This document shows, piece after piece, positions 2,169 through 43,294 of a stretch of DNA of 64,000 nt. Under the pieces are notes generated by a model. That model searched no databases. It had not been told where the DNA came from and worked only from the letters and a program-made list of their open reading frames with translations. A program made the translations under genes and the position numbers. Position 1 is the first letter of the stretch, and the number at the start of each line of letters is the position of its first letter. The DNA is taken from assembly GCF_008386395.1 (NCBI RefSeq), contig NZ_CP043761.1:4526001-4590000 (forward strand). Reading direction: 5' to 3'. The DNA is from Paenibacillus sp. 37 (GTDB lineage Bacteria > Bacillota > Bacilli > Paenibacillales > Paenibacillaceae).

Positions 2169-2197
2169 TCTATACGTGTTATAGGAGCAGCAGTTAA
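2169..2197 (-). promoter_or_regulatory. late promoter site A (TTAACT-N15-CGTATAGA)
   Basis: The minus strand reads TTAACT at 2197-2192, 15 nt, then CGTATAGA at 2176-2169. It lies about 50 nt upstream of the 124-aa gene start. It is a full match to the consensus built from the nine sites in this window. Confidence 0.75.
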
Positions 2198-2580
2198 ATT
2201 GGAGCCGCAGATGAAGTATTGGTTCCGCTGCTTAGGACCATATAGTTCGTCCGCATATGGTGTACAGCCACGTCCAGATCAGCCACTCGTTTGGAGACAA
2301 AGTCTTCAATGACAGGCTCCAATGGCCTGAAACCCACAACCAAGATCGGCTTTTTATGTATATAAGCATGATGCATGATCACAATATCAGTAGAGGTCAA
2401 ATGATCCATATCCAGATTAACCAAGACGGCATCAGCCTGTACCACTACTTTCTCAATGATCAAGGCATACTCCCTGTTGCTTAAATCAGAAGCTGTCGAA
2501 GAATCATGACTTGCCCAAGCGATATCCGAATACCCCTCCAGACGTTCCACAGAAAATCCTAAAACCACCACACTAAGCAT
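2194..2580 (-). CDS. nucleoside 2-deoxyribosyltransferase-like small protein
   Basis: 128 aa. The central segment ADAVLVNLDMDHLTSTDIV followed by MHHAYIHKKPILVVG has the layout of the nucleoside 2-deoxyribosyltransferase / TIR-like Rossmann family: a strand, a variable loop, a D/E position, then 'AY..gKPi'. The catalytic Glu usual in NDT enzymes is not obvious; an Asp sits nearby. An NAD/nucleotide-processing or purely structural role cannot be told apart. It has its own promoter (site B at 2612-2641) and follows the second sigma gene. Fold call is an inference of moderate strength. Confidence 0.5.
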   Translation of the reverse strand: MLSVVVLGFSVERLEGYSDIAWASHDSSTASDLSNREYALIIEKVVVQADAVLVNLDMDHLTSTDIVIMHHAYIHKKPILVVGFRPLEPVIEDFVSKRVADLDVAVHHMRTNYMVLSSGTNTSSAAPI

Positions 2581-2611
2581 CTTGTTCCGCCTTCCTTTCT
2601 GTACTAATCAC

Positions 2612-2641
2612 TCTATACGACATAAAAAAGCACCCAGTTAA
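2612..2641 (-). promoter_or_regulatory. late promoter site B, -35 box in a terminator loop
   Basis: TTAACT (2641-2636), 16 nt, CGTATAGA (2619-2612) on the minus strand. The -35 hexamer overlaps the loop of the terminator hairpin at 2624-2648 and the U-run forms the spacer. It would drive the 128-aa gene starting at 2580. Confidence 0.75.
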
Positions 2642-2648
2642 GGGTGCT
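2624..2648 (-). terminator. intrinsic terminator of the small sigma gene
   Basis: Stem AGCACCC / GGGTGCT with a TTAACT-bearing loop, followed by six U. It ends the sigma transcription unit (stop at 2715) and shares bases with promoter site B. Confidence 0.8.
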
Positions 2649-2714
2649 CTCTCTGTTCTATGTAGGTTACTGATCTATCTTCATCAAACTTAGGCTATTA
2701 ATTGCCACTTATGA

Positions 2715-3281
2715 CTACAATGCTTCGTATTTCTCACGAATCGCTTTCCATAACTGGGATATACGTGCCTTGGATACACCTAGCATTCCTGCAATCTCTA
2801 CAAATTCATACCCCGAAGTCCGAAGCTTAAAGATTTGTTTCTCACGTTCGTTCAGTCTCATATTTTCCATAATATCTGTTACAAACTCAAAATTCTCATA
2901 AGCAAACCCAGCATGACCAAGCGCTAATGCGATATCTGAGCCTTCCGATTCATCGCCACCACCCTGATCCGTGCACATGATCTGTACAGCGTTAACCACA
3001 CTGAGATTTTTCTCAGACATGCACTTGCGGTACATGTCCTTGATTTTATTTTCGATAAGATGATCAACAAACGTCGACATTTTGGCTTTTTCTGCATCAT
3101 ACTTGTCCAGGGATTTAACTAATTTGATCATAATCTCCTGGGTCACATCTTCTTTCTCCATCCCGGCAAACGTTTTACCTCTAAGCTTGTGACGACACTT
3201 CTCCTGAGCTTTATTCAGGAACATGTCTATATCCCCAATCTCAAATAAATCATCAAAACCCATAGCAGTTGTAGCAGGCAT
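2715..3281 (-). CDS. small sigma-70 family factor (ECF-like architecture)
   Basis: 188 aa with only regions 2 and 4, as in ECF-size sigma factors. Region 2 spans about residues 18-93, with EDVTQEIMIKLVKSLDKYD and then MSTFVDHLIENKIKDMYRK. Region 4 covers about 138-186 (LNEREKQIFKLRTSGYEFVE), with the helix-turn-helix GVSKARISQLWKAIREKY. An SD-like GGGGGA stands 8 nt before the ATG. It sits in the tail element behind a relaxed copy of the late promoter motif (3580-3608) and about 300 nt of leader, which would allow autoregulation. It is the leading candidate to recognise TTAACT-N15-CGTATAGA: ECF-type -10 boxes often contain CGT. Sigma identity is strong; target assignment is inferred. Confidence 0.88.
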   Translation of the reverse strand: MPATTAMGFDDLFEIGDIDMFLNKAQEKCRHKLRGKTFAGMEKEDVTQEIMIKLVKSLDKYDAEKAKMSTFVDHLIENKIKDMYRKCMSEKNLSVVNAVQIMCTDQGGGDESEGSDIALALGHAGFAYENFEFVTDIMENMRLNEREKQIFKLRTSGYEFVEIAGMLGVSKARISQLWKAIREKYEAL

Positions 3282-3579
3282 TATACATTTCCCCCATTAA
3301 CTATTTAATTATTAGTAGTTCGTATTCTTTCTTCACAATCTAGTCGCTATCCAGCATGATCTTACTCTATATTCCCGCTATTGCTCCCGAAATCTCATAT
3401 ACCTTATGTAGTCTTATTTACACAGAATTGAAGCTAATAAGCCTAATTACATACAAACGATCAAGAAATCTCCCTTTGATCCGCCTCCCTATTCCCATCC
3501 TATTACATTCAGAATAACAAATACGAACTAATGTTCGCAACATTTATTTATTTCGTTCGCTTATATGTCTTTTACTGAC
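3282..3579 (-). other. long untranslated leader of the small sigma gene
   Basis: About 300 nt between the promoter-like site H and the sigma ATG hold no convincing gene. The stretch is AT-rich with no strong hairpin that I can see by eye. It could contain further promoters or a regulatory leader. Confidence 0.4.
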
Positions 3580-3608
3580 TATATACGAAGTATACGGTGA
3601 AAGGTAAA
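3580..3608 (-). promoter_or_regulatory. late promoter site H (TTTACC-N15-CGTATATA)
   Basis: A weaker match (TTTACC at 3608-3603, CGTATATA at 3587-3580) with exact 15-nt spacing. It sits just downstream of a strong terminator, the same terminator-then-promoter order seen elsewhere in the element. The next gene is the 188-aa sigma factor. Confidence 0.5.
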
Positions 3609-3626
3609 GCAGCATTTTTTACAAAC

Positions 3627-5064: not shown

Positions 5065-5093
5065 TCTATACGTCTTATCCAAATAAGTGTTAA
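5065..5093 (-). promoter_or_regulatory. late promoter site C (TTAACA-N15-CGTATAGA)
   Basis: TTAACA at 5093-5088 and CGTATAGA at 5072-5065. It lies just after the terminator at 5147-5172 and about 45 nt before the 107-aa gene. Confidence 0.75.
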
Positions 5094-5177: not shown

Positions 5178-6092
5178 TTAGTATTTCTTAACCGCTATAC
5201 GATTGCCGTATGAATCATATATATATTGGAAGTTGGTTTGAACAGGTGTTGTTCCCATCCTGGTGATGGACTTTGCCACCATTCTTCCCTCATCATCATA
5301 CTGATAGATGACATCAACCAAAGTAGGAAGCTGCACGAAGTCCACACCGTCATATCGGTAAATTTCACCAATGGAAGTGACCATGAAAGATTCATCTTGT
5401 GCATAACCTTCTGGAGAAGCTGGCATGATCAGTACAGGTTCTCTGACCAGCTGCTCGGTGTAGTTGTCTGTAACGACTTGTCGAATAACTCTTCCCTGCA
5501 TGTCAAAAGCAAAATATGTAACTACATCCGTATAATCTACCAAATCGCTGATCGATTCCCACGGATCAATGACATTCAGGCGTTTTCGTTCAGCCCAGGT
5601 CATACTCACATGCGTTTCTCCATCGTTGATCATATCGGCACTGTGTGTGTCAGGATGTTTGTAATGATTGGCCTCAAGCTCGATGTTGGACAACTTTTCA
5701 CGTTCGTTCAGAGTCATGATAACGTTATAACTTCCATCTGTTAACATGTCTGCACTGTGTGTATCCGGATGAGTATAGATCACCGTTTTGGAACCATTAA
5801 GATTAATGATTCCATTCTCGGGATGGTTTGAAACTCGATCACCACCCACCTTTACATATTTCCCACCGCTGTATGTATAGGTCGTTGATTCATTTTGATT
5901 GCTTGAGTCTTGGCGTACCAGATACAATCTTCCTGCTTCACCTAAGGTTGGCAGTTCAGTTTTGAGTCTGACCGAGACCACGTTTCCTACTGACACTGCG
6001 TCCAGTCTGCCATCAAGTGAGGCATAAGAATCCCTGGCTTGTTTAACTTCACGTTCTACTTTGGCAGCTTTGCTGAATGAAACAATATCCAT
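5178..6092 (-). CDS. tail fibre / appendage protein with HPDTHSADM repeats
   Basis: 304 aa. N-terminal coiled-coil (about residues 5-32). Two copies of a fibre-type repeat lie around residues 105-180: HPDTHSADM..DG....MT..ER..L..I, a pattern common in Bacillus phage tail fibres. The C-terminus (about 260-304) has YD-type beta repeats (YQYDDEGRMVAKSITRMG, YDSYGNRIAVKKY). It is the last gene of the fibre operon. It probably forms part of the distal appendage that contacts the host envelope. Fibre nature is well supported; the receptor is unknown. Confidence 0.75.
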   Translation of the reverse strand: MDIVSFSKAAKVEREVKQARDSYASLDGRLDAVSVGNVVSVRLKTELPTLGEAGRLYLVRQDSSNQNESTTYTYSGGKYVKVGGDRVSNHPENGIINLNGSKTVIYTHPDTHSADMLTDGSYNVIMTLNEREKLSNIELEANHYKHPDTHSADMINDGETHVSMTWAERKRLNVIDPWESISDLVDYTDVVTYFAFDMQGRVIRQVVTDNYTEQLVREPVLIMPASPEGYAQDESFMVTSIGEIYRYDGVDFVQLPTLVDVIYQYDDEGRMVAKSITRMGTTPVQTNFQYIYDSYGNRIAVKKY

Positions 6093-6110
6093 GTGGTGGT
6101 CCTCCTCCTC

Positions 6111-6506
6111 CTACCTCGTAGTCAATCCAACGACCTCGATATCGAAGTGGGCTACATCTGTACCCAGATTTTTTAACGACAAGTGAAGTGTTGAAGTCCC
6201 ATCTACGTCCTCATATGGCAAATCGATCATATCGTAAATCCCTTCCATAAAATTCCCCGTCGAGTATTGGGCATTGTTGAAATAGAGAACCTCTGGATGT
6301 GGACCCGCACTGTTCAAAACATGAACTTCCATATTCGTCTCTCTGGACGGAATGACCCTAATCGTTTTGATCATGAATCGAGGATGTTCCATGGGAATAT
6401 CAATCATTGCCTTCGCCCCACCGGCAACATACTCTACTCTTTGGGCAAACGATACCGGCAATAGCACTTTTCTCATCTCCTCCATCAGTTTCCATGTCCT
6501 GTTCAA
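6111..6506 (-). CDS. hypothetical tail-tip protein, 131 aa
   Basis: 131 aa; beta-rich. The TTG at 6506 is chosen because AAGGAGG ends 8 nt before it. It overlaps the last 4 nt of the upstream gene. A jelly-roll-like or small beta-sandwich is suggested by alternating hydrophobics (FMIKTIRVIPSRETNMEVHV, DVAHFDIEVVGLTTR), as in accessory adsorption proteins. No family recognised. Confidence 0.65.
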   Translation of the reverse strand: MNRTWKLMEEMRKVLLPVSFAQRVEYVAGGAKAMIDIPMEHPRFMIKTIRVIPSRETNMEVHVLNSAGPHPEVLYFNNAQYSTGNFMEGIYDMIDLPYEDVDGTSTLHLSLKNLGTDVAHFDIEVVGLTTR

Positions 6507-7063
6507 GAGTCTTCCCTCCTTCTAGGAATATGCGTATCCGGATACCGTCGTGGACGAAGATGATTGCCAGATGTGTTACCACTTCCGCTGTAAGACCAAT
6601 CCCCCCACGTTTTCCCCACTAACCCCGCTTGCTGGACAGGAATTTTGACCTTAATGCACCAATCAAGCCCCGCAAAATTTTGTTTTGTTTTTAGGCCTCT
6701 TATGGTGTCTCGAATTAAACCTGCTCCACTGGATTGGGTCAAAAATTGATGCTTCAGTATCATATTTTTTTCATTAGGAATTCCCACTCTGGTTCGTGGC
6801 CCATAAATATACTTATCCGTAACGTATCCAATCAATTGATCATTATGGTTGTCCAGCATCCTCCATGTACCCCAACGGTAGATGTCAATTAATTCAGCCG
6901 TAGTGGATAACGTTCCTAATGAATAGACTATTTCCTTACCTTCAATGGTGACCGGAACAGCATCAAGATCGTATCCAATGCCATGGAGAACTGCCGCCTT
7001 ACTCTGGGTATAGAGAGAACCGCTCTCGGCGGTCCCTACAACTTTCCCTTGATGTATAGCCAT
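6503..7063 (-). CDS. hypothetical tail-tip protein, 186 aa
   Basis: 186 aa. Start ATG 7063 is chosen because AAGGTGGTGAT stands just before it. Composition is Gly/Ser-rich at the C-terminus and ends in a basic tail (RPRRYPDTHIPRRRED). No domain recognised. It lies between two members of the tail-tip gene set and is coupled to the 131-aa gene. It may be a small adsorption protein. Confidence 0.6.
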   Translation of the reverse strand: MAIHQGKVVGTAESGSLYTQSKAAVLHGIGYDLDAVPVTIEGKEIVYSLGTLSTTAELIDIYRWGTWRMLDNHNDQLIGYVTDKYIYGPRTRVGIPNEKNMILKHQFLTQSSGAGLIRDTIRGLKTKQNFAGLDWCIKVKIPVQQAGLVGKTWGDWSYSGSGNTSGNHLRPRRYPDTHIPRRREDS

Positions 7064-7076
7064 GTCCATCACCACC

Positions 7077-7868
7077 TTAATTCATCAGGACAGCAACCGT
7101 AGCGCCTGATAAGAAGCTCTGTCCACCAATCGACAGTGAGTATACCTTAATTGTTTTAGTGCCCACTTTGATCTCATCTCCATGAGAAACTCCAGCAGAA
7201 GGTACCGCATAGATATCAATAAGCTCGCCTCTAGGGCCTTCCACACCATTACACATAATAACCGGAGCAAGATGATAAAGAGACCCCCACCCTGGATTAA
7301 CAGGAAGCATGGCAGAGTAAGCATCATAAATGTTATTCACCATCTGTTTATCTTTATCACGCAACGTCCGGATACCATTATCCCCGTTGTAGCTGAGGCC
7401 AACACTCAAACTCGAGGAATCTGTCTCTGTGGCATATCTGTTCAGAATTCCGAAGTAACCCAGATTGGATATACCGGTGACCGAGTTCACATCCCCCTGC
7501 AAGTAAATAATAATACGGTTTGGTTGAACTGAAACTTGGTAATCGATTAATAGATTCGTATCAACCGCACTCGTATGACATAGAAAGTCCTTTTTCACTT
7601 CGGCTCTGCCCAAAGGAATACTACCATCTGTTGCCATCACATCTTCAGCCACACTCACGGTCAATTTGTTTCCCGTAGTTTCCTTCGTGTTTCCAACCTC
7701 AAGTCTGAAGAACAGTTTATCAGAACCCGTTGTGCCCACCGATTTCAGCACGATCACACTCGCTGTCTCGTAAAAAATGGACCAGGGAGATCCCGCAATC
7801 GTTTTAAAACCTTGAACAATATTCGCGAATAATTCATTCATCTTAACTTTGCCTGTGAAAGTAGCCAT
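7077..7868 (-). CDS. tail-tip paralogue family member, 263 aa
   Basis: 263 aa. The ATG at 7868 is preceded by AGGAGGTG at 10 nt; the longer frame would overlap the upstream gene. It shares with the 317-, 354-, 378- and 639-aa proteins a C-terminal signature, here APVIMCNGVEGPRGELIDIYA. In the relatives this is 'P..V.H..EG.RG...' followed by a 'DE(L)I.D.G' segment. It also has the N-terminal pattern of a helical 'LF..IV..F' start. The group looks like a duplicated tail-tip or adhesin family. Function inferred from position only. Confidence 0.65.
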   Translation of the reverse strand: MATFTGKVKMNELFANIVQGFKTIAGSPWSIFYETASVIVLKSVGTTGSDKLFFRLEVGNTKETTGNKLTVSVAEDVMATDGSIPLGRAEVKKDFLCHTSAVDTNLLIDYQVSVQPNRIIIYLQGDVNSVTGISNLGYFGILNRYATETDSSSLSVGLSYNGDNGIRTLRDKDKQMVNNIYDAYSAMLPVNPGWGSLYHLAPVIMCNGVEGPRGELIDIYAVPSAGVSHGDEIKVGTKTIKVYSLSIGGQSFLSGATVAVLMN

Positions 7869-7884
7869 TCCTCTTAAACACCTC

Positions 7885-8838
7885 CTATATTTGGAAAAGT
7901 AACGCTCTTTGCCCGCCACCAAGCAGTCTGGCACCATGGAAAAACTTCGGCCTTGAATACACAGGAGCTAGGTTCGAATTGTAGTAATAACGTCCATAAT
8001 CTGTATTCGGATAATCCTGGTCTACCACATGAAACACGTAGTACTTGCCATCATTGCCAAGATCCAGAATTGATCCATCGGGGTGCTGGGCACTGTTTTT
8101 AAATACAATGGAACGCATACCCTTGAATTCACCCCTAGCTCCTTCAGATGGATGATAGACCATGAAAGGCGTAACATAGTATCTGGAACCCACACCTGGA
8201 GAAGGAATCGACTCAGTTCCAAAATTGTACAGTGCATACTCCGTTCCATTCCGTGAAGTCATCACAACACCTCTCGGTGTATTATATTGATCTGATGTGT
8301 TGTTATCCGAAGCGGATAAAGGCATATGTGGGAAAACGCCATAAAATTTATCGGCAATCGCCGGGTCTTCTTGCTCTAGTGGCTGGCATTTACCTAGGAA
8401 TATTCTTACGGGATAAGCTCGTTCCGGGTAGTTCAGACTCTCTCCGTGAATAAACAGGATATCCTCATTCGAAATTACTGACCACTTATAGTTCACATTG
8501 TACTGCACGTTATGACACATAAATGGCGTTTCCGTCATGAATTTATCTGTGTCCACTGGTGGATTTACGAATAGATCTGGTGATGCCACATTGCTTCCCA
8601 GGTTCTTCAGCCCCCAACGAATGTTGACTCCTCTTGCATGCGCCCATACACACATGGTAAAACGCATGGATGTATTTTTTTTATTGGTAAGCAGCGCATT
8701 TCCCCAGTTGGCATAGGTTGTTTCGGCAGTATGTACCGTATCCCAGTAAGGATCGAGCGCATCTTTCAATGTGTTAACAAGTGTTGAAGTAAATAAGCTT
8801 AGCGTACTGGTAAACTCGTGTCTGCGAATCATGGTCAT
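7885..8838 (-). CDS. tail-tip paralogue family member, 317 aa
   Basis: 317 aa. GGAGGTG 6 nt before the ATG. It is clearly paralogous to the next gene upstream (354 aa). Shared blocks are YPVRIFLGK..PLEQEDP..A, then TSRNGTEYALYNF, then PFMVYHPSEGARGEFKGMRS, then PDGSILDLG, then a common end LLGGGQRALLFQI. No signal peptide or membrane span. The family appears to be a virion-associated tail-tip protein; the shared end suggests a conserved assembly interface with variable upstream parts. Confidence 0.7.
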   Translation of the reverse strand: MTMIRRHEFTSTLSLFTSTLVNTLKDALDPYWDTVHTAETTYANWGNALLTNKKNTSMRFTMCVWAHARGVNIRWGLKNLGSNVASPDLFVNPPVDTDKFMTETPFMCHNVQYNVNYKWSVISNEDILFIHGESLNYPERAYPVRIFLGKCQPLEQEDPAIADKFYGVFPHMPLSASDNNTSDQYNTPRGVVMTSRNGTEYALYNFGTESIPSPGVGSRYYVTPFMVYHPSEGARGEFKGMRSIVFKNSAQHPDGSILDLGNDGKYYVFHVVDQDYPNTDYGRYYYNSNLAPVYSRPKFFHGARLLGGGQRALLFQI

Positions 8839-8841
8839 GCG

Positions 8842-9906
8842 CTACACCTCCTTCTCAATTTCGAAAAGCAGCACCCGCTGCCCACCACCGAGAAGTAAGG
8901 GGGAATCGAAGAAGTAGGGTTGACCATTGTAGTAAGCTCCATTAGTTGCAAAAAATCCCTGATGAGTTGCCGGATGCTGCTGAACATTCACATGGAATAC
9001 ATAATAGCGCTCATCCCCCAGATCAAGAATTGAACCATCCGGGTACATACTCGAATTTCTTAGTACGGCAGTACGTATACCGAAGAACTCTCCCCTTACT
9101 CCTTCCGTTCCATGCCAGACATAAAAAGGAGAGATAAAGTACCTTCCACCTAAACCCGGAGAAGGAACTTGAGAACTCGTTGAGAAATGATATAACGCAT
9201 TACTTGTACCATTTCTTGATGTCCTCACGTAGCCTCTGCCTGTATTATGCTTCAATTCAACACCAGCAATATTCATCCCAACTGGATAATGACCAAAAAT
9301 CCCCACAAAGTCATTTGCTACAAGTGGATCTTCTTCCTCAAAAGACTTCATTCTGCCAAGATATAATCTAACAGGATAGGCTGCATCGCCAATGTAATTT
9401 TGTGCCTCACCAAATAAATAGATGTAATTAAAATTAGTGAATAGAGTCCACTTCCAGTAAACATTAGGAGCATTAGATAAATTTGAATACGCTTCGTTAA
9501 TGCAAGTATTCAGAGGAATTTCGGTTACAGCACCTACATTGGTATAAAGATCAGGTTTCACAATCGAACCATTATTTCTCAAACCTGTTCTAAGCATATA
9601 ACTCCTAGTGCAATCTCTGCTGTAATTGGGTGTATAAAACCTAGAAACATTCATACTAATTGTGAAGAACATACTTGGATCTTTTATATTTTGAGCCGTA
9701 AGAGTGCCCAGATTTGCATCACTCCTACTAGGATGAGTCCAACTCCTTGGAATTGAATATTCATTAGATGGTTCATAAGTCCAGTTCCAATGTATATCCC
9801 CATACAAATCTTGACTAACTGTTTTGTAAAGCTCAGCAATCAAATTGGAAGAATAAGAATAAAACTCATACCGACGCAGGGCACCTAATAAAATATTTTC
9901 AGCCAA
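8842..9906 (-). CDS. tail-tip paralogue family member, 354 aa
   Basis: 354 aa, starting at TTG 9906 with GGAGGTGAGG ahead of it. It aligns block by block with the 317-aa neighbour: YPVRLYLGRMKSFEEEDPLV, TSRNGTSNALYHF, PFYVWHGTEGVRGEF, PDGSILDLG, LLGGGQRVLLFEI. The middle (about residues 80-150) differs, which would fit diversification of a receptor-facing part. Tandem duplication is the likely origin. Confidence 0.7.
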   Translation of the reverse strand: MAENILLGALRRYEFYSYSSNLIAELYKTVSQDLYGDIHWNWTYEPSNEYSIPRSWTHPSRSDANLGTLTAQNIKDPSMFFTISMNVSRFYTPNYSRDCTRSYMLRTGLRNNGSIVKPDLYTNVGAVTEIPLNTCINEAYSNLSNAPNVYWKWTLFTNFNYIYLFGEAQNYIGDAAYPVRLYLGRMKSFEEEDPLVANDFVGIFGHYPVGMNIAGVELKHNTGRGYVRTSRNGTSNALYHFSTSSQVPSPGLGGRYFISPFYVWHGTEGVRGEFFGIRTAVLRNSSMYPDGSILDLGDERYYVFHVNVQQHPATHQGFFATNGAYYNGQPYFFDSPLLLGGGQRVLLFEIEKEV

Positions 9907-9919
9907 CTACCTCACCTCC

Positions 9920-10273
9920 TTAGGCACCAAATCGGATTTTCATTTCGTGAAAGATGTTCTCTTTAAGTACGGTTAACAGAATTGATTTCACCATGTCGCT
10001 TCTCTCTGTTATGAGATTCTCTTGATAAGACTGCTCTTTATCCTCAGCTCCATCCTCTGATTCCACACCACTACTAGCAGCCTCATAAATTTCAGGTAAC
10101 CCTTTTAGTGAAGGCAGAAACTTATGAGCCACATTATCAAACAGGATATTGCTTTCAAAAGCAAAGATCAGGATTTCAATTTCCTCTGTACTGAATGGCT
10201 CTAAGTGATTGCCCACTAATTTATCCATAATCGTATGTAGTGCAAACTTCACATCCTGCACGGTCCTCGTCAC
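9920..10273 (-). CDS. hypothetical protein, 117 aa
   Basis: 117 aa, helical and acidic. The GTG at 10273 is preceded at 5 nt by AAGGTTGTGAT, close to the SD consensus. The gene begins 2 nt after the stop of the 588-aa fibre gene, so it is co-translated with it. It could be a fibre assembly chaperone, since such small helical proteins often follow fibre genes, but no motif proves this. Confidence 0.55.
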   Translation of the reverse strand: MTRTVQDVKFALHTIMDKLVGNHLEPFSTEEIEILIFAFESNILFDNVAHKFLPSLKGLPEIYEAASSGVESEDGAEDKEQSYQENLITERSDMVKSILLTVLKENIFHEMKIRFGA

Positions 10274-10274
10274 G

Positions 10275-12041: not shown

Positions 12042-12070
12042 TTGACCACCTCCATTCATGCCTTACATGA

Positions 12071-12099
12071 TCTATACGTAATTACTCCAATTCGATTAA
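12071..12099 (-). promoter_or_regulatory. late promoter site D (TTAATC-N15-CGTATAGA)
   Basis: TTAATC at 12099-12094 and CGTATAGA at 12078-12071. The -35 box starts right after the stop codon of the 377-aa gene. It would drive the fibre operon 12041-5178. Confidence 0.75.
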
Positions 12100-12100
12100 G

Positions 12101-13234: not shown

Positions 13235-13250
13235 ACAGATCCTCCTTTCT

Positions 13251-17939: not shown

Positions 17940-17959
17940 ACCAATCACCTCCCAATCTC

Positions 17960-17988
17960 TCTATACGACAAAAAGAGCACCGAGTTAA
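17960..17988 (-). promoter_or_regulatory. late promoter site E, -35 box in a terminator loop
   Basis: TTAACT (17988-17983), 15 nt, CGTATAGA (17967-17960). The -35 box includes the stop codon of the 1932-aa gene and sits in the terminator loop. The start of the 1562-aa gene lies 21 nt downstream. Confidence 0.8.
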
Positions 17989-17995
17989 TCGGTGC
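17969..17995 (-). terminator. intrinsic terminator fused to promoter site E
   Basis: Perfect 7-bp stem GCACCGA / TCGGTGC with loop TTAAC, followed by TCTTTTT. The stop codon of the giant gene is inside the loop. Confidence 0.8.
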
Positions 17996-25021: not shown

Positions 25022-25034
25022 TATGTAATCCTCC

Positions 25035-26954: not shown

Positions 26955-26965
26955 CGTCACCCTCC

Positions 26966-27376: not shown

Positions 27377-27394
27377 GGAACCACCTCCTACATG

Positions 27395-30951: not shown

Positions 30952-30966
30952 ATTGTAATCTCCCCC

Positions 30967-32373: not shown

Positions 32374-32401
32374 AAACACCTCCTATCTTTAGAATAGACA
32401 G

Positions 32402-32427
32402 AAAAGAGAGTAGGTCACCCTACTCTC
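32402..32427 (-). terminator. intrinsic terminator between the two SLH genes
   Basis: Perfect 9-bp stem GAGAGTAGG / CCTACTCTC followed by TTTTCTG. It overlaps the stop of the 216-aa gene. Confidence 0.7.
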
Positions 32428-33070: not shown

Positions 33071-33084
33071 ATCAGAGTTCCTCC

Positions 33085-36000: not shown

Positions 36001-36942
36001 CGACGCGTCTGCATCCGTAGCCTTCAATTGTTCAGCAAGAAGATCGAATCTAACTCGATTCGATGCAAAGCCCTGCTGAGGATGATCTCCTTTTGACTGA
36101 ACCAACAATCCAGCCTTACTAATCCAGTTGGCTAATGCATCCTCTTGTGCAAACGTTTCATCAGGGTTCCCAACCTTTGGAAGGGTCTGACGCATCATAT
36201 CCATCAAGTCCTGAATGCCAACATCCAACATCGTTGAAGCTCTGATCATCATGTCTGTGACTCGGGACAGATCAAAGCTACTGCTTCCCCATGCCGGAGT
36301 AACAGCTTCCAGACCTATTGCCGTCTGTTCTACATCCATATTGCCCGCTGAATGCAGCTTGGCTACTTCTTCAGCAAACGCGACAGCTTCAGATGAATGA
36401 TCATAATTACGAGAACCAATACGATAGGCAAGACCCACATCTTCCTGATCCATACCATGTTGCAGTGCAATTCTTTGCAGATTTTTGACCGTTCCGGTTT
36501 GTGTGAATTGCCCTCTGTCATGCGTTGTCCCAGACGATCTAAGCTCCAAATTTTGGTCGGCTCGGCTTATCTGTTGATCCATCTGCTGCGACGAGTCAAG
36601 GGATTTCTTAAGTAATGTTGATGAGTACCCCTTGGTTTCACCTGCTGAAATATATTTCATCGTATTCATCACGGAGTCTATCAACCCCTGTGAGCCAGCT
36701 GCAGACACATCCTTCATTTCACTGAACGCTCCACGATAAAAGTGCTCCAAATCGGTCGTCAGTGTTTCAATCATTTGCGACTGCATATCACTTCTGATTG
36801 TCTCCACTCGTCTAATCAGTGTGCTAACCCCTGAAGGGGAACTCTCTTTCAGTACTGCGTTTTGTCCAGTTAATTGATCCTTATCCGTTAATATTTCTTG
36901 TGTTAATGAATGTTTATCTCCTTGTCCTTCTGTTTCAGTCAA
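33085..36942 (-). CDS. tail tape measure protein
   Basis: 1285 aa. The TTG at 36942 is chosen because AGGCGGTGAT stands before it; an ATG at 36984 lacks an SD and lies within a hairpin. Long helical and coiled-coil stretches (about 430-560, 950-1250) flank a hydrophobic membrane-active segment near residue 814 (KAVPYLGAAMTAVDVVSGLV). It follows the chaperone pair, the standard place for this gene. At roughly 0.15 nm per residue the tail would be near 190 nm long, a family rule and not a measurement. Confidence 0.88.
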   Translation of the reverse strand: MTETEGQGDKHSLTQEILTDKDQLTGQNAVLKESSPSGVSTLIRRVETIRSDMQSQMIETLTTDLEHFYRGAFSEMKDVSAAGSQGLIDSVMNTMKYISAGETKGYSSTLLKKSLDSSQQMDQQISRADQNLELRSSGTTHDRGQFTQTGTVKNLQRIALQHGMDQEDVGLAYRIGSRNYDHSSEAVAFAEEVAKLHSAGNMDVEQTAIGLEAVTPAWGSSSFDLSRVTDMMIRASTMLDVGIQDLMDMMRQTLPKVGNPDETFAQEDALANWISKAGLLVQSKGDHPQQGFASNRVRFDLLAEQLKATDADASIHQRTGSRDNLQFRQREIEITFQIATHEAMQGLKEEFAEMGDYLIAVMRLIGDRTGGIVDHMELLNRIMDEVGVQVAWDKFGEVMNEGDQKRYNATNADPGKVENTGSDVPEPLRVVDVQRAGVAQEMGRQQSRLQTLEHRRTEIQSRAAVKQDEVLQARTTRDHKHNMYNQAVQDGDTAASSIHAEERDEAEKRVKTYSRELLLLREEMHSLDIQIAKTKRSLELLGRELDDTSRAMMQLEHQARVLMMAMDDMDLDAVELRNKLYFLNAEFTYGSTDVQRYESEIQKLRKQSTLLNDVLSTLRTEVNELNASFRQGMIDATAYISKLKELEQVQLASMMSGPGGLLVVPGAGSGGSPVKDDKEDSANKPFLERHQDFINDVIKDMAKSKIEEVMDFGSDKKKKDKPKRRGIKQRFEDMKEVGSKKAFFNGHAPIRDKDGNVLRGPDKPDGTPGDILTQRDITSERKKKGDIPGKLAKLGKFGKSILKPLKAVPYLGAAMTAVDVVSGLVDPLSNMGKSEAEKQSIRATNKEELAKDFKDMEQSSVVGKVWKGLNLGMDAVVKGGISSLFGNNATNNKFGDYWKGFKAVWSEDGGDAVEKKLGKEYNYKQEKKEAQIQMDKESGKPPGDSKQQQQPQIQYIQPQMQYIPAAGGIGTIANGYTPQPQSNGIDEMIAKINRQLNKSTSDNETNYQVTRSRLLISGVREDSGQMRALMEKYLQENIKFFDKAIASLQKTYDKMAEGKEKDELGLEINEKKQQKAQSELELNGVKNSQIDELRRKMNDQFELTQLDYDKRMYDLLAANGGKEDAPELIALNKSRASEMNSQISSIKQDWKNLLNSGVFKPGSDEYMQIFKQIQSLGVEQSKNLYEISKKMDKPISSFNIPAGLKVMDYFDYMTTNNTHKSVMVGSGDVTVHVNIDNMTGNTKDVERLTSTLDKTLRQNSPGIANRMSGNVGAGMGTNHIPRYSR

Positions 36943-36965
36943 AAGAATCACCGCCTTTATGCATA

Positions 36966-37000
36966 AATCCCGTTCTACCTTCATTTAGGCAAAACGGGAT
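36966..37000 (-). terminator. hairpin between chaperone and tape measure genes
   Basis: Stem ATCCCGTTTT / GAACGGGAT (one mismatch) with a 15-nt loop, but only UUU after it. It may be a weak terminator, a processing site or an mRNA stabiliser that lowers tape measure expression. Confidence 0.45.
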
Positions 37001-37009
37001 GTCTCTCTC

Positions 37010-37369
37010 TTATCCTCCGAGCGCTTGTGCAAGCATACCGATATCATCTTCAGATATCTCCGTGTAATCCTCGTCATTGAAGGTTCTTTTACGTCTGACG
37101 GTCCCATCTTCTTCAACTTCCTCGCCCCCACCGCCACCGAACATGCGAAGAGGTGCTGTCATAAGTTCAACCTCAAATTGAATATATTTCTCGGCTGACT
37201 TGCACAGCTCCGCAACCTGAGGGAGTGTGTACTCCCAAATCTCCCACTTGTTCAGCCCACAGTGTTTATGGAGGGTGAAGAAGATTTCTCCCCAGTGAAC
37301 GGGTTCCTGTGTTTCCGTATCACGGATTTCGGTTCCCTCCAAAGACTCCCCCTCGGTGCGTTCTACTTT
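37010..37369 (-). CDS. tail assembly chaperone C-terminal part, made by -1 frameshift
   Basis: The frame is open from the slippery site at 37375-37369 and gives 119 residues after the shift (starting KVERTEGESLEGTEIRD). The Gly run GGGGGEEVEEDG sits about two thirds in. It has no own SD at a good distance, and the only internal start candidate is TTG 37342. It corresponds to the 'T' part of lambda-type gpGT, which joins tail tube subunits to the tape measure during assembly. The expected fusion is 158 + 119 = 277 aa. Confidence 0.8.
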   Translation of the reverse strand, partial: KVERTEGESLEGTEIRDTETQEPVHWGEIFFTLHKHCGLNKWEIWEYTLPQVAELCKSAEKYIQFEVELMTAPLRMFGGGGGEEVEEDGTVRRKRTFNDEDYTEISEDDIGMLAQALGG

Positions 37370-37842
37370 TTTAAACCATTGAGTCCAATGAGCATATCAA
37401 TGACTTTACGAGCTGTGTTCAGATCAAGGTACTCATCCAGATACTCTCGATTGATGATATACTCACCATGCTCATCTTTGGTCACGATATGTGGATAGTT
37501 TTTGAATGCCATTGCCAATACATCAAATAGATCCTGCTGCCGCTTTTCGTCCAGTTCGTCATTCTCAGTGGGAATGAAATTAAGAATAATGGCATCAATA
37601 TTCACCGTTTTCAGCAACTTCATCAGACGGCGTGCATCCTTCAGGTTACATGGCGGAATACGATATTTCCGTCGATCCCGCAGCGTAATAATCTCATCAT
37701 CTTCAAAGAATGCACGCTCAGCAGCTTCCACTTCCTCCGGCGTCACTCGTTTGTTCTCCGGATCATCCTTGATTCGTTTCGCTGCTTCCTCATTCAGCTT
37801 TTCGGCCAGTTCACGCTCTGCTTTTTCTTGTTCTGTTTCCAT
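37363..37842 (-). CDS. tail assembly chaperone (gpG-like), 159 aa
   Basis: 159 aa, acidic and helical (EQEKAERELAEKLNEEAAKR; FDVLAMAFKNYPHIV). GGGGAGG lies 11 nt before the ATG at 37842. It stands between tail tube and tape measure genes. Near its stop it carries T-TTA-AAA in the 0 frame (37375-37369), the classical -1 slippery heptamer. Most ribosomes should make the short form, a few the gpGT-like fusion. The role is a scaffold for tail tube polymerisation. Confidence 0.82.
   Translation of the reverse strand: METEQEKAERELAEKLNEEAAKRIKDDPENKRVTPEEVEAAERAFFEDDEIITLRDRRKYRIPPCNLKDARRLMKLLKTVNIDAIILNFIPTENDELDEKRQQDLFDVLAMAFKNYPHIVTKDEHGEYIINREYLDEYLDLNTARKVIDMLIGLNGLKK
37369..37375 (-). other. 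-1 programmed frameshift site T-TTA-AAA
   Basis: The heptamer UUUAAAA lies in the right phase, two codons before the stop at 37363. The -1 frame continues for 119 codons. A GC-rich stretch with GAGGGGGAG follows. This is the X-XXY-YYZ pattern known from tail chaperones of dsDNA phages. Confidence 0.85.
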
Positions 37843-37882
37843 GTATTTAAAGACCTCCCCAGGACATTCTCCCCTATATAAT

Positions 37883-37948
37883 AAAAAACCTGGCAAGGCA
37901 AGGCGCTGTGAAGGGGAGGACACAGATGCCGTTTGATACCTTGCCAGG
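37883..37948 (-). terminator. long hairpin with U-tract after the tail tube gene
   Basis: 10-bp stem CCTGGCAAGG / CCTTGCCAGG with an inner imperfect stem (CATCTGTG / CACAGCGCC), followed by UUUUUU. It probably lowers read-through, so tail tube is made in excess over chaperone and tape measure. Confidence 0.7.
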
Positions 37949-37970
37949 AGCAATCAACCTTATTTAAATA

Positions 37971-38792
37971 TTAGATCTTGCTTGGTGCACTGAAGCGTTT
38001 GATACTGCCAATTTTTCCGTCAGCACGTTCAGGATCAAGAATCTGCAAGGAGATTGCAGATGCAGAAGCGGCAGCACGCTGAGCATTGATGCTGAATGTT
38101 CCTTTTGCACGACACATGTACAACTCGGTTTCAACCCCTGCATACGAACCATCTTTTTGCTGGAACGTACCGTGATGAATAACAGAGATCGGGAATGGGA
38201 CTTCATCAACCAACAGATCAACCATGTCTACAATTTGGTCTCGCTTGTAGTTGAACACAACCTCTTTACCGATATGGGCAGCATTCAGAATAACTACATC
38301 ATTCGCTTCGTCGTAGAAGAACGCATTGGGTTCCACGGCCGTTCCTTTGGAAGTGAGTTGTTTCAGCAACGTGTTGGAATCTTTGAGACGAACCGTAATG
38401 TCACCGTTACTTCCATAGATATCACTCGCATGCTTCGGTTTGGCTTCCGCAAATCCAGAATTGGACACGCCTGCAGCCACTGTAGACTGCTCATTCAGTA
38501 CCCATACATAAGACTTCACTTGCTCTTGTACAGTTGAACCCATCATCAGCTGGATCGCATCCAGATCGAATTTGGCATCTGTTGCCGACACTTCAATCGA
38601 TTTGGACTTCACCAGTACATCAATGGCGAACAGACCGTCACCACCAAAGATGTCCTCAAGCTCCACGTTAAGGTCAATTTTCAGATCTTGCAGGGTACCC
38701 AGGGTAACTACCTCAATTTCGCCCATCGGATCTTTTGGAAGGCGTTTAGCCATGAACGTACCTACACCTTTGATAATCATTTTTTTAGCCAT
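37971..38792 (-). CDS. major tail tube protein
   Basis: 273 aa. AAGGAG is 11 nt before ATG 38792; GTG 38804 would overlap the SD. Tube-type pattern: a short N-terminus, then LGTLQDLKIDLNVELEDIFG, then AIDVLVKSKSIEVSATDAKF and, toward the end, ELYMCRAKGTFSINAQRAAA. These recall the inner-tube beta-barrel proteins of long-tailed phages. No sheath gene lies next to it. It is the first tail structural gene of the operon and is followed by a hairpin terminator, consistent with high copy need. Confidence 0.75.
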   Translation of the reverse strand: MAKKMIIKGVGTFMAKRLPKDPMGEIEVVTLGTLQDLKIDLNVELEDIFGGDGLFAIDVLVKSKSIEVSATDAKFDLDAIQLMMGSTVQEQVKSYVWVLNEQSTVAAGVSNSGFAEAKPKHASDIYGSNGDITVRLKDSNTLLKQLTSKGTAVEPNAFFYDEANDVVILNAAHIGKEVVFNYKRDQIVDMVDLLVDEVPFPISVIHHGTFQQKDGSYAGVETELYMCRAKGTFSINAQRAAASASAISLQILDPERADGKIGSIKRFSAPSKI

Positions 38793-39032
38793 TGAATAGT
38801 CCACTCCTTAGGATAATTATGTAATTTTAGCTACTGAGACTTGCTTAAGCCGGGATCAGGTTAAATGACTTGATGATCGGGAGATCCTTCGTTAACCTGT
38901 CTGGCTATTGGCCGTCTCTGCTTTTTATAGTGTAGAACGCTATCTTCATTCCCTAACGATAATGTAAACGAAATATATTGAAGTACGAATTGCCCTGTCA
39001 TCCTTGCAAAAGGAATAGCCCTATATCTAATC
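38793..39032 (-). other. leader region of the tail tube gene
   Basis: 240 nt without a gene. AGGTTAA and TTAACCT (about 38865-38905) form an inverted repeat around a GATC-rich loop. A TATAAA box lies near 38925-38935, but I see no clean -35 and no full late promoter motif. A promoter for the tail genes is expected here. Confidence 0.4.
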
Positions 39033-39063
39033 AAAGAAACGACCCCTACATCAGAGGGGCCGT
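39033..39063 (-). terminator. intrinsic terminator of the glycosyltransferase operon
   Basis: 9-bp stem ACGGCCCCT / AGGGGTCGT (one G-U pair) followed by TTTCTTTG. It separates the glycosyltransferase genes from the tail tube leader. Confidence 0.7.
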
Positions 39064-39684
39064 TCTGTTTGGCAAAGAATCAATAATTTGCGCTACCTGT
39101 TCTGCACGTTCCTTGATCTCAAATTCATCGGCAGTAACCAGATGAACATGCGAGCAATATTTGCCATGCTCATAGATTCTCTCGGGAGTAATAAAGACAA
39201 CGTCAGCAACAGCTTCCATCTTGTGCTTGTGCTTCTCATATTGATCCGGATCGGTCAACGAATCAAATACGACCAGATCAGGATATGCTGTCTCGACCGA
39301 ACTTGCCAGCCGACTATCGTTCACCCAATAGATTACGCGATCCCCCTGAAACAGCGTACGGACATTCTGGCCCACACGGGCTACGACAAAGTTTGGAAGC
39401 TCCGGATGAGGATACTCCAAGGCATCTACCTGATAGAACTCATCACTGGAGTTGATATATATTACATTGAAGCCTACTTCCGCGAGTGCTTTTAACAGCC
39501 GCTGTGGTCGACGCCCGAATCGTTCACTATGGAAATCGATCGCAGGCAGATATACAATCGTTGTATTCGTGTTTGGGGTGTATGTCGTAACATTGAACTC
39601 CATCGCATCAATCTCTATTTTTGGAAGCTCCATTGGCAGAGTCGTTGATTGACTACCAAACAATCGTTTAAATATCTTTTTCAT
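39046..39684 (-). CDS. N-terminal half of a GT-B glycosyltransferase, 212 aa
   Basis: 212 aa. GGGAGG is 8 nt before the ATG. Its first 190 residues align with the N-terminal domain of the neighbouring 363-aa enzyme. Compare TIVYLPAIDFHSERFGRRPQ with TIVYPPALDW...FQRPQQ, and VIYWVNDSRLA with VLWFSNPGQ. The C-terminal donor-binding domain is missing, so it lacks a nucleotide-sugar site. It could be a non-catalytic partner subunit or a decayed duplicate. It overlaps the 363-aa gene by 17 nt and shares its operon. Confidence 0.65.
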   Translation of the reverse strand: MKKIFKRLFGSQSTTLPMELPKIEIDAMEFNVTTYTPNTNTTIVYLPAIDFHSERFGRRPQRLLKALAEVGFNVIYINSSDEFYQVDALEYPHPELPNFVVARVGQNVRTLFQGDRVIYWVNDSRLASSVETAYPDLVVFDSLTDPDQYEKHKHKMEAVADVVFITPERIYEHGKYCSHVHLVTADEFEIKERAEQVAQIIDSLPNRTAPLM

Positions 39685-40759
39685 GATTTCTGCCTCCCAT
39701 CACCTGATTAATCATCCTCACGGCATCCACTGCCCTGCCATCCCAGCTATTAGACTTAGCCACCCTTACTCGTGCTGCAATTTTGGAAGCACTATTTTCA
39801 CGAATCGCTTTCTCCAACATCACCCCGCAATTATGCTGATCCATAAAGTAAGTTACATCGCTGTACTTATGAACAATCTCCTCCATACGCGTTGTCAACA
39901 CAGGTTTGCCCGCAGACAAATATTCATAATACTTGATCGGATCGCAGCCCCGGATCATCTCTGTCAACTTGAATGGCACGATACAGACATCGAATTGAGC
40001 AATGTAGGCGGGAAGCACTTTATAATCTTTGTGCGGAAGACAAGTCACATTGGGATGCACAATAATTTTTTGATAGAGGGTATTGTTTCCAATCAAAACA
40101 ACACGATATCCCTTATCTGCAATAGCGGTAATCAGCGAATAATCCACCCACGATGCCATTGCACCGTGGAAACCCACAATCTTTTGCCCATCATGAACAT
40201 CGGGGAAGTCGGCCGGTTTGGGCAGAATGACTCGCGCTTTCTCAAAATGTTGGTAATCTGCCCCGTTAGGGCACATAAAGATTGGTTTGCCGTCATGTTT
40301 ATGTGCCTCGTACATCACCTTGGCAGTCGTGGCAATAAGATCTGCACGGTCAAAACATTTCGGGATGTAGGATTTCCATACAGCAAACTCATCAGCGGAA
40401 TTATCAAGGTAATCAAATACGGTAAAATCAAACTTTCGTCCATCCGAATAATTGTACTGACCTGGATTCGAGAACCAGAGTACCTTCTTTCCTTTGACCA
40501 GGTGATCGTAGTTCACACCTTTCTGCACAAGGAACAGATCCTCATTTAACTTTTCAATCGGACGGCTCTGCTTTCTGTACGTTTCTTCATTGATAAAGAT
40601 AGCCCGTATACCTGGAATATTGGAGAAGGCAGTCATCAATTGCTGAGGACGTTGAAACAAGAGGTTCCAGTCAAGTGCGGGCGGGTAGACAATGGTCATT
40701 TCTATACTTTCAAAAACCGGATTTTCTCGTTGTTTTCTACGAAGCAACCAATTGAGCAA
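39668..40759 (-). CDS. GT-B fold glycosyltransferase, 363 aa
   Basis: 363 aa. The start is TTG 40759, with a GGTGGAG SD nearby. An N-terminal acceptor domain (about 20-180) is followed by a GT1/GT4-type donor domain: KIVGFHGAMASWVDYSLIT, VVLIGNN, VTCLPHKDYKVLPAYIAQFD, VCIVPFK and the E-x7-E-like YEYLSAGKPVLTTRMEE. It resembles cytosolic enzymes that move a hexose to a surface glycan or protein. In the tail element it may modify tail proteins or the host wall polymer. It overlaps the upstream gene by 23 nt. Confidence 0.8.
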   Translation of the reverse strand: MLNWLLRRKQRENPVFESIEMTIVYPPALDWNLLFQRPQQLMTAFSNIPGIRAIFINEETYRKQSRPIEKLNEDLFLVQKGVNYDHLVKGKKVLWFSNPGQYNYSDGRKFDFTVFDYLDNSADEFAVWKSYIPKCFDRADLIATTAKVMYEAHKHDGKPIFMCPNGADYQHFEKARVILPKPADFPDVHDGQKIVGFHGAMASWVDYSLITAIADKGYRVVLIGNNTLYQKIIVHPNVTCLPHKDYKVLPAYIAQFDVCIVPFKLTEMIRGCDPIKYYEYLSAGKPVLTTRMEEIVHKYSDVTYFMDQHNCGVMLEKAIRENSASKIAARVRVAKSNSWDGRAVDAVRMINQVMGGRNHEKDI

Positions 40760-41396
40760 TCAACTCCACCCCTTCCGCATAGGCATGAACGGGACGCAAA
40801 CGAGTATCTACAAACAGTTCAAATCCCAATCTTCTAGCTTGCTCACAGAATGGTGCATCTTCACCTGTTGGATGAGAACCATATCGAACCCCTGCTTCGA
40901 TCACTTCACGCTTAATCAAATATACGGCACCTGTCAGTTCTACCGGGAACAAACCCGCTTTGAACTCAGGTATATGTTTTCCGCCGATCATGGCATTATG
41001 AGCCTTTAACTTTGGGTGATTCCGTATAAGCATGGAGCATACATCTTTGTCATTATCCATTAACTGCCCTAGGCTACCCCCGGGAATAATGATATCCGTA
41101 TCAATTGAGAACAGATACTCACAGTCCGATTTCAGAAACTCATCCAGAAGCATATTTCTCAACAACGCCAGATTGTGATAGGAATATTGTCCACGTATAT
41201 GACCATATGTTCTCCCCAGATGATGAGTTAGATAAGGAATCTGATGACAATCAAGGATATGCTCCGTCTGATCTTCACTATCATTCAGGATATACATATA
41301 ATGCTTCTGCACTGCTTGTTGCTCAAGCGATTGCAAGTGTCGTTCCATAATCCAAGCCCGGTTTCGTACAGGACTACCTATAAATACGTTTTTCAC
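40737..41396 (-). CDS. GT-A fold glycosyltransferase, 219 aa
   Basis: 219 aa. The start is GTG 41396, with GAGGGG 7 nt upstream. GT-A features: VFIGSPVRNRAWIMERHLQS at the N-terminus, then the metal-binding DxD-type motif in FSIDTDIIIPGG, then ELTGAVYLIKREVIEAG and an acidic GEDAPFCEQARRLG. The family resembles GT2-like and GT-A enzymes found next to cell surface loci. It is the first gene of the three-gene glycosyltransferase operon and lies divergent from the plus-strand genes. Confidence 0.8.
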   Translation of the reverse strand: MKNVFIGSPVRNRAWIMERHLQSLEQQAVQKHYMYILNDSEDQTEHILDCHQIPYLTHHLGRTYGHIRGQYSYHNLALLRNMLLDEFLKSDCEYLFSIDTDIIIPGGSLGQLMDNDKDVCSMLIRNHPKLKAHNAMIGGKHIPEFKAGLFPVELTGAVYLIKREVIEAGVRYGSHPTGEDAPFCEQARRLGFELFVDTRLRPVHAYAEGVELIAQLVAS

Positions 41397-41415: not shown

Positions 41416-41445
41416 TTTACATAGTCTAGACTGTTGCTCTATAAC
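41416..41445 (+). promoter_or_regulatory. candidate SigA-type promoter for the plus-strand genes
   Basis: TTTACA, 18 nt, TATAAC on the plus strand, in the divergent region before the GT-D gene. About 120 nt of leader follows. Confidence 0.4.
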
Positions 41446-42327: not shown

Positions 42328-42347
42328 CCCTCTCCGGGTCTTTTTTA
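42326..42347 (+). terminator. intrinsic terminator of the GT-D gene
   Basis: GACCC / GGGTC stem with loop TCTCC and six T. It starts at the stop codon. Confidence 0.8.
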
Positions 42348-42510
42348 TTGGATAAAACGGTGATTCCAATCCGATTTTATTGATTTAGTGGCTGTTGATA
42401 AATTAAACTATCTGCCTTATTATTGTTAAGATAACTCCTAATCTAACCTGGTTTAAACTTGCATGAAGAGGAGCTCTGCTAAGATATTCAAACCGTTGGA
42501 GGGAAATGTA

Positions 42511-42780
42511 ATGGCGTACTCGCAGTCAAAGACCGAAATAGTAGCAACACATTTACGAACAAGATTTATGGAAGGTAACGTGGAGGGACATGAGATCGTT
42601 GTTGCCTTGATCAGTATGGTCAAAGCTGAGAAGATTAATTTAGATGAGGTTGCCCCTATTCTCTCTACAGTCTTTTTCGAACAACCGCAAGGTATTCTGT
42701 TGGCACTCGAAAAAGCTAGCACTCTGATTGATGATGAATTAATTGATTCCATTCTCCACGAAGTAAACGAAAAAGCTTAA
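42511..42780 (+). CDS. hypothetical helical protein, 89 aa
   Basis: 89 aa. The ATG at 42511 has GGAGGG 8 nt before it; the longer frame to 42463 has a poorer SD. It is all-helical and acidic (GHEIVVALISMVKAEKINLD; DDELIDSILHEVNEKA). No membrane segment. No family recognised. It has a similar size and helical build to the next gene but no clear sequence identity. Possibly a regulator of the lysis or tail genes. Confidence 0.6.
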   Translation: MAYSQSKTEIVATHLRTRFMEGNVEGHEIVVALISMVKAEKINLDEVAPILSTVFFEQPQGILLALEKASTLIDDELIDSILHEVNEKA

Positions 42781-42955
42781 TCTTACATACAAAGGGAGAG
42801 CTTATCATCAGATATTAATTTACAACAACCAGTTATTCTCTCCACACTTTTAGATTAAATAGATTCATCACTGAGAAATTGGACCTTCTCGTTATTTTCT
42901 GTCCTCCTCCGCTTATTCTAGTAGTATTACGAAGGAGGGGACACCCATCGAGACA

Positions 42956-43183
42956 GTGAATAAAGCCATTTTATTTTTAGTAGTTATTGAAACCATGCTT
43001 GAAGCGCTCCACCATACAGAAGTAGATCAGACAGAACTAGTGGATTCGCTTGTTATGTTAGGTTTTGATCCCATTGAGATGTTGTACGAGACAAATACCA
43101 TTAGATCTTTCCAAAAGATATGCAGGGCTTTCGCAGAACTCCATCTTACAGATGAGGCCCTGGACACGTTCTCAAAAGAGTAG
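42956..43183 (+). CDS. hypothetical helical protein, 75-78 aa
   Basis: 75 aa from GTG 42956, or 78 aa if translation begins at ATC 42947. GGAGGGG lies 6 nt before that ATC but 15 nt before the GTG. It has a hydrophobic N-terminal helix (AILFLVVIETMLEALHH) and an acidic rest. No family recognised. It ends just before a strong terminator. A small membrane-associated regulator is possible. Confidence 0.6.
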   Translation: MNKAILFLVVIETMLEALHHTEVDQTELVDSLVMLGFDPIEMLYETNTIRSFQKICRAFAELHLTDEALDTFSKE

Positions 43184-43190
43184 TTACATA

Positions 43191-43234
43191 AGCAGAACCC
43201 CACATCACATTCGACGTGGGGTTCTGCTTTTTTT
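43191..43234 (+). terminator. strong intrinsic terminator
   Basis: Perfect 13-bp stem AGCAGAACCCCAC / GTGGGGTTCTGCT with a 12-nt loop and seven T. Confidence 0.9.
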
Positions 43235-43265
43235 GAATTTCGAACCCTTTTTGAACCGGATCAGC

Positions 43266-43294
43266 TTAACCTTCCCCATCCTGCCTCGTATAGG
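43266..43294 (+). promoter_or_regulatory. late promoter site J, plus strand (TTAACC-N15-CGTATAGG)
   Basis: TTAACC at 43266-43271 and CGTATAGG at 43287-43294. It is the only plus-strand copy and lies about 70 nt before a 62-aa plus-strand gene, just after a terminator. Its orientation agrees with that gene, which speaks for a real promoter rather than a strand-biased repeat. Confidence 0.75.

Follow-up and report, generated by a model that had tools for sequence, protein, structure and literature searches.

A headless phage tail element in the genome of the soil bacterium Paenibacillus sp. 37 carries nine copies of a two-part box, TTAAC(T)-N15/16-CGTATA, which very likely represent a sigma-specific promoter class (class 1). 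The element lies in a 64,000-nucleotide (nt) stretch of contig NZ_CP043761.1 (positions 4,526,001 to 4,590,000), hereafter the window. An initial annotation of this DNA had proposed that a dedicated sigma factor reads the boxes and had credited the element with two sigma genes. Both genes are present: sigma1 (2715..3281, minus strand), a two-domain sigma factor of 188 amino acids that has just regions 2 and 4, and sigma2 (1..692, minus strand), a 267-amino-acid protein resembling SigB, SigF and SigG whose gene runs off the left window edge (L150:13890-14693). From sequence comparison, a dedicated reader appears very likely, and sigma1, the better candidate of the two, probably reads the class-1 boxes. 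Three observations support this assignment: sigma1 co-occurs with the boxes, its own gene has a box upstream, and phages with a diverged sigma1 have differing boxes.

A pattern scan of the window located all nine sites that the initial annotation had listed as a TTAACT-like box followed by CGTATA, with coordinates and strands correct; the spacer is 15 nt at eight sites and 16 nt at 2612, counted from after the sixth base of the -35 box. The -35 box is TTAACT at four of the nine (2169, 2612, 17960 and 27396), and the -10 box is CGTATAGA at six, CGTATATA at two and CGTATAGG at one. On the minus strand, the site at 2169..2197 (TTAACT-N15-CGTATAGA; present in 13 of 13 genomes, with TTTAC as the -35 box in G029) would lead ORFs (open reading frames) 1741-2115 and 1529-1744, the SLT transglycosylase gene and sigma2, an operon that we infer from gene spacing. 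The next sites are 2612..2641 (TTAACT-N16-CGTATAGA; before ORF 2194-2580; 13 of 13 genomes), 3580..3608 (TTTACC-N15-CGTATATA; 300 nt upstream of sigma1, with TTTAC kept in 13 of 13 genomes) and 5065..5093 (TTAACA-N15-CGTATAGA; before ORF 4698-5021; 11 of 13 genomes, the exceptions being G015 and G058, whose elements have shrunk). Four more minus-strand sites occur in all ten full-length elements: 12071..12099 (TTAATC-N15-CGTATAGA, before ORF 10275-12059), 17960..17988 (TTAACT-N15-CGTATAGA, before ORF 13251-17948), 23854..23882 (TAAACT-N15-CGTATAGA, before ORF 17985-23849) and 27396..27424 (TTAACT-N15-CGTATATA, before ORF 26966-27376). The remaining site, at 43266..43294 on the plus strand (TTAACC-N15-CGTATAGG), is found in 12 of 13 genomes. 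The description of the sites as intergenic and upstream of tail genes holds for most of them, with three departures: 27396..27424 overlaps the 3' end of ORF 27395-27838, 43266 leads only a very short ORF, recognized by eye, and ORF 43364-43552, with no tail gene evident, and 3580 precedes sigma1, for which it is a candidate self-promoter.

Letters downstream of the -10 box are also conserved, reading GAGAAAGT in the related prophage of genome G031 and AGTG at the same offset in the Brevibacillus phage Jenst, so the class reaches about 10 nt beyond the -10 box. The pairing of boxes at a distance typical of promoters, their orientation towards genes and the conservation of letters at -35, at -10 and just downstream make it very improbable that the sites are instead an operator for some other phage protein, an activator or a repressor, even though the published Jenst motif was likewise left open in the part of its source used here (PMC4909266).

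The sites stand out from background when the motif is defined tightly. With a matrix trained independently of the window, on 19 strict sites of the G031 prophage from another species, the nine sites ranked 1 to 8 and 10; rank 9 went to a site at 14395 that is not among the nine, and 3580 was the weakest of the nine (11.1 bits, rank 10). In the window this matrix scored eight hits at 14 bits or more and six at 16 bits or more, whereas 40 first-order Markov simulations gave 0.275 on average and none, respectively. CGTATA with AAC 15-18 nt before it matched nine times in the window; seven matches are class-1 sites and two (26411 and 30392) have other spacing. A scan for equally good matches elsewhere in the genome, as the initial annotation had suggested, favoured the element: all five matches to the strict form TTAAC-N16/17-CGTATAKA in the 7.62-Mb genome fall inside it. 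Looser forms gave no excess over reversed controls in the same genome, whether as TWAAY-N16/17-CGTATA (41 matches, eight of them in the element, versus 48) or with three mismatches allowed (503 versus 928); in the window, three mismatches gave 62 matches versus a mean of 47 in shuffles. Because the loose forms behave much like their controls, only the tight form of the motif is informative, and the three-mismatch scans, which did not separate the sites from background, were dropped. The hexamer CGTATA by itself occurs 52 times in the window versus 18 in shuffles, far above what nine sites account for.

Across 75 genomes of the genus, including that of Paenibacillus sp. 37, strict sites follow sigma1. 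The 20 genomes with sigma1 hold 114 strict sites (3-18 each), 109 of them in the element as placed by position beside sigma1; this count includes a site of G066 that sits on another contig (C17) and resembles the 43266 orthologues. The 55 genomes without sigma1 hold 24, at 0-3 each and scattered. A close homologue of the tail chaperone (at least 80% identity) occurs in 17 of the 75 genomes, and all 17 carry sigma1. G015, G058 and G066 have sigma1 and no close tail chaperone; we rejected the view that they break the link between strict sites and sigma1, as they hold three, three and four strict sites and a smaller element. In Paenibacillus sp. D2_2, whose sigma1 is 74% identical, 10 of 15 TTAAC-N16/17-CGTATA sites lie within 53 kb around the sigma1 gene. 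Conversely, four distant tail elements without sigma1 showed no class-1 cluster, with 1, 4, 1 and 0 loose matches among the four; of these, G012 and G061 encode a sigma2-like protein (25-27%), and none was found at 1e-20 in G001 and G016. Distant elements of this kind, with a chaperone 45-50% identical, occur at other places in 13 genus genomes, including G001, G012 and G061; some have a sigma2-like gene, and 10 of the 13 genomes lack sigma1.

The boxes are also conserved as boxes. CGTATA was invariant in 102 of 102 orthologous sites from 13 genomes, and the five bases of TTAAC were held, in order, by 102, 89, 88, 102 and 95 of them; these rows were chosen by a loose motif search, yet all ten tabulated full-length elements have all nine sites. 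Within site families TTAAC identity was 0.84-1.00, compared with 0.47-0.93 for the spacers, and spacer identity was high only where the spacer is also part of a hairpin (2612 and 17960) or coding (27396).

SigW-type promoters of Bacillus, which are read by ECF (extracytoplasmic function) sigmas, have AAC in the -35 box and CGT(A) in the -10 box with 16 nt between. The class-1 sites share this layout but have TTAACT where the SigW class (TGAAAC-N16-CGTA) has TGAAAC, and their reader would be a sigma of the phage element. A host ECF sigma of the SigW kind, borrowed by the phage, would account for the resemblance, and the host genome has 35 region-2 matches to draw on; the lack of strict-site clusters in the 55 relatives without sigma1, and the change of the boxes in phages whose sigma1 differs, leave this explanation with very little probability.

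That change is seen in phages from IMG/VR with sigma1 at 49, 46 and 43% identity, which carry the diverged boxes TWAACT-N15-CGTATAGGTTCAGTG, TTAACT-N15-CGTATAAGTACTATG and TTAACT-N15-GGTA, respectively. A broad pattern matched 13, 18 and 18 times in these phages versus 5, 1 and 0 times in reversed controls. A phage with a 34% relative of sigma1 has a weak TAAC-N16-ACGCA dyad in four copies. A class-1 site also stands upstream of sigma1 in the window lineage, and in G031 and related phages, there with an intervening gene.

Sigma1 has the layout of an ECF (group IV) sigma, with Pfam matches to Sigma70_r2 (residues 38-86, 1.5e-9) and Sigma70_r4 (142-180, 6.6e-7) and none to region 3. It passes the broad superfamily model TIGR02937 (63.8 against a cut-off of 42.9), and its AlphaFold model (mean predicted local distance difference test score of 70) has two helical parts and a low-confidence stretch at 90-132. 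The nearest solved sequence is sigma-H (1.7e-11; SigW, 0.012), and the fold matches were sigma factors of several types with TM-scores of at most 0.38 among the matches listed. Searches against phage records gave no match for sigma1 at E 1e-5 or for its 46% relative at 1e-3, and the 76% relative had no match among plasmids at 1e-5. An MpsC-family protein (PF10057) is encoded next to sigma1 (3881-4297, minus strand).

A single class-1 switch for the whole tail is not supported. The initial annotation had envisaged one switch for the tail genes, but no class-1 site leads the operon for the tube, chaperones, tape measure and tip peptidase (38.8-27.8 kb), and the glycosyltransferase and holin/amidase operons likewise have none; all three operons carry another conserved box instead. 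Before the tail tube operon this second-class box is GTTAG-N16-TCTACACTA (38928..38957, minus strand), conserved in 10 of 10 full-length elements with the footprint GTTAG.GAAT-N11-GTTCTA.ACTA, a stretch to which G031 and four distant rows could not be aligned. Before the glycosyltransferase operon (TCTAGACTA, 41422..41430) and before the holin/amidase genes (CCTAACCTA, 44805..44813), both on the minus strand, we found the -10-like part without GTTAG, with footprints in 13 genomes of GTCTA..CTA and G[CT]CTA..CTA, respectively. In 1.49 Mb, GTTAG-N16/17-YCTANHCTA matched 18 times versus 5 times in reversed controls: once in each of the ten full-length elements, at orthologous positions, twice in G031, three times in G078, twice in part of G079 and once in the phage G080. 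The -10 half alone is not rare, with six matches in the element and 33 in G031. Our guess is that sigma2 may read this second class, GTTAG-N16-YCTAnnCTA or its -10 part alone. The G080 phage (L252-L257) has a further repeated element, GC-rich ACCG-N13-CGCTG (11 counts over both strands), which is unrelated to the boxes.

Several observations weigh against the assignment of the boxes to the two sigmas. Five strict sites of sigma1-positive genomes lie outside the element (G002, G028, G040, G050 and G052), and the genes of the four distant elements differ, which weakens their lack of sites. The ECF models PF08281 (r4_2; 19.1 bits, cut-off 25.7) and PF07638 (16.4 bits, cut-off 21.1) score sigma1 below cut-off, and the second class is backed by a small number of independent sites. 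Sigma2 is present in 20 of the 20 sigma1-positive genomes, so co-occurrence alone cannot separate the two sigmas, and sigma2-like proteins also vary from phage to phage, so the joint divergence of boxes and sigma1 would be compatible with sigma2 as well. The genome G069 keeps sigma2 (82%) and one small gene and has no sigma1, and a pattern search of 60 kb there found no class-1 site; it has one matrix hit of at least 14 bits (none of at least 16) and one strict match on another contig, and the absence of sites there discriminates weakly because the genes that class-1 sites lead were lost as well.

These points bear on the converse possibility, that the class-1 boxes are recognized by sigma2, leaving the second class or some other target to sigma1. 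Besides the constant presence of both sigmas, sigma2 sits in the gene row led by the class-1 site 2169 and would thus also form a self-loop. We nevertheless consider this unlikely: the site that stands alone in front of a sigma gene is before sigma1, not sigma2; G069, with sigma2, lacks class-1 sites by pattern but keeps, by eye, two second-class -10-like boxes, weak evidence given the lost genes; and boxes of the AAC...CGT type are more in keeping with region-2+4 (ECF) sigmas than with SigF/G types. The case for sigma1 over sigma2 has support but falls short of proof.

If sigma1 reads class 1 and sigma2 the second class, a two-step sigma cascade would control the element. Sigma1 would bind host core RNA polymerase at the class-1 boxes, and transcription would start about 6-8 nt after CGTATA. 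Sigma1 would feed back on its own gene through site 3580 and would turn on the tail-fibre genes, the small accessory genes and the operon ending in the SLT gene and sigma2. Less securely, sigma2 might then read the second box class and activate the tube/tape-measure, glycosyltransferase and lysis operons. The picture as a whole, of a domesticated tail weapon with a private sigma1-to-sigma2 cascade, terminators that hold a -35 box in their loop, and lock-and-key co-evolution of the sigma and its boxes across a phage family, we advance tentatively, as having somewhat less than an even chance of being right.

At 2612 and 17960, the terminator-like hairpin of the preceding operon is stable (z -5.1 and -5.0) and has the -35 box as its loop; at 2612 its T-run is the spacer. 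Among the genomes that have each site, the subset folded kept the hairpins (eight and seven genomes, respectively). At these two sites the same short sequence would both terminate the preceding transcript and initiate the following one. A separate hairpin with a T-run lies directly downstream of site 23854 (23801..23847, minus strand; all 11 genomes folded give values from -20.7 to -28.3 kcal/mol) and may be a leader terminator or attenuator of the largest gene.

The rest of the element is consistent with a phage tail that has been retained without its head. All its modules named here are encoded on the minus strand. The tail core (27811..38804; several names follow phage gene order) comprises the tail tube (37971-38804), assembly chaperones (37363-37953 and 37010-37342), the tape measure (33085-36984) and tip proteins including a peptidase-like domain (27811-30951). 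Tail-tip and fibre-like genes fill 5178..27838, with roles that we infer from their place and orthologues of 50-91% identity in the G031 prophage. Sequence matches identify glycosyltransferase-like genes (39046..41396) and a lysis pair of amidase and holin (43582..44771); a GT-D fold domain occurs among the glycosyltransferase-like genes at 39046-42327. The left neighbour is a D-Ala-D-Ala carboxypeptidase gene, and to the right lie ytfJ (TIGR02874) and scpB/scpA. Further host genes, recognized by eye from their translations, are presumably spmA, spmB and rib; spmA and spmB had no NCBIfam match at 1e-10.

The corresponding chromosomal site in G031 is occupied by a complete prophage of about 117 kb with genes for terminase, portal, ribonucleotide reductase, helicase and nicotinamide phosphoribosyltransferase. 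Of its 126 mechanically called ORFs of at least 80 amino acids, 37 have matches in the window element or at its edge; these comprise the tail and fibre genes, the two sigmas, SLT, the glycosyltransferases, holin, amidase, a set of small genes and a single host gene. The terminase, portal, portal-to-tube ORFs and replication genes of G031 have no counterpart in the window element. The window element is thus a version of a Jenst-like prophage without head, packaging and replication genes, and, with its tail and lysis genes present, it has the gene content of a domesticated tail. Contrary to what had been proposed, the boxes do not appear to be private to the tail element, because the complete prophage uses the same class-1 boxes, including one directly before its helicase gene. 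The tape measure is 1299 amino acids long in the element and 3050 in the prophage, which would mean a shorter tail; in 3 of the 11 genomes with a match (G004, G036 and G054) it is split into two ORFs. Smaller elements remain in G015, G058 and G066, that of G066 at a contig end. The ratio of nonsynonymous to synonymous substitution rates (dN/dS) was 0.01-0.20 where dS was computable (19 of the 20 genes asked, in three species pairs; dS was often >1 and the values are rough), and within this range both sigmas gave 0.03-0.06, the tube 0.05-0.10, and genes 13251 and 17985 gave 0.13-0.20.

The closest known relatives of the tail module are Jenst-like phages (best phage records Jenst, SecTim467 and EZ-2018a, 31-47% identity). 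According to the part of the source used here, Jenst and SecTim467 carry 19 and 20 copies of a repeated promoter-like motif, and these phages have three sigma-like genes, gp74, gp80 and gp140; the authors raised the possibility of a phage sigma being recruited to the motif, and that part assigns no particular sigma (PMC4909266). In our comparison, gp140 is a 26% relative of sigma1 over 150 residues. The Jenst genome reads GCAACT-N16-CGACCATA, often with AGTG following at the same offset, which appears to be the published motif; it resembles the class-1 layout but differs in box letters and spacing. Consistent with this difference, the whole Jenst record gave a single loose match to the window boxes, whose letters are not those of Jenst, and the part of the EZ-2018a record scanned gave two loose window-type matches, neither with TTAAC, and none of the Jenst type. 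In gene content the element resembles F-type (non-contractile) tailocins, with siphophage-like tail genes, lysis genes and no head or packaging genes, and its dN/dS values are low, if rough; it has the sigma pair and the box classes in addition. To our knowledge, no second sigma is known for PBSX, the defective prophage of Bacillus subtilis. PBSX is linked to Xpf, a region-2+4 (group IV) sigma that we liken to sigma1 by its published description (PMC10141391).

We found no description of this sigma/box pair in the open-access literature, as covered by titles and abstract openings. The system would be a new variation on phage control by sigma factors, preserved in a tail element that has no head. 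It turns an unassigned promoter-like motif type of a phage family into a candidate sigma-promoter pair, and the boxes and sigmas that differ together offer natural variants for studying shifts in sigma specificity. The pair could also mark such elements in unannotated genomes, and it points to a way in which a phage tail without a head can hold on to a regulator of its own.

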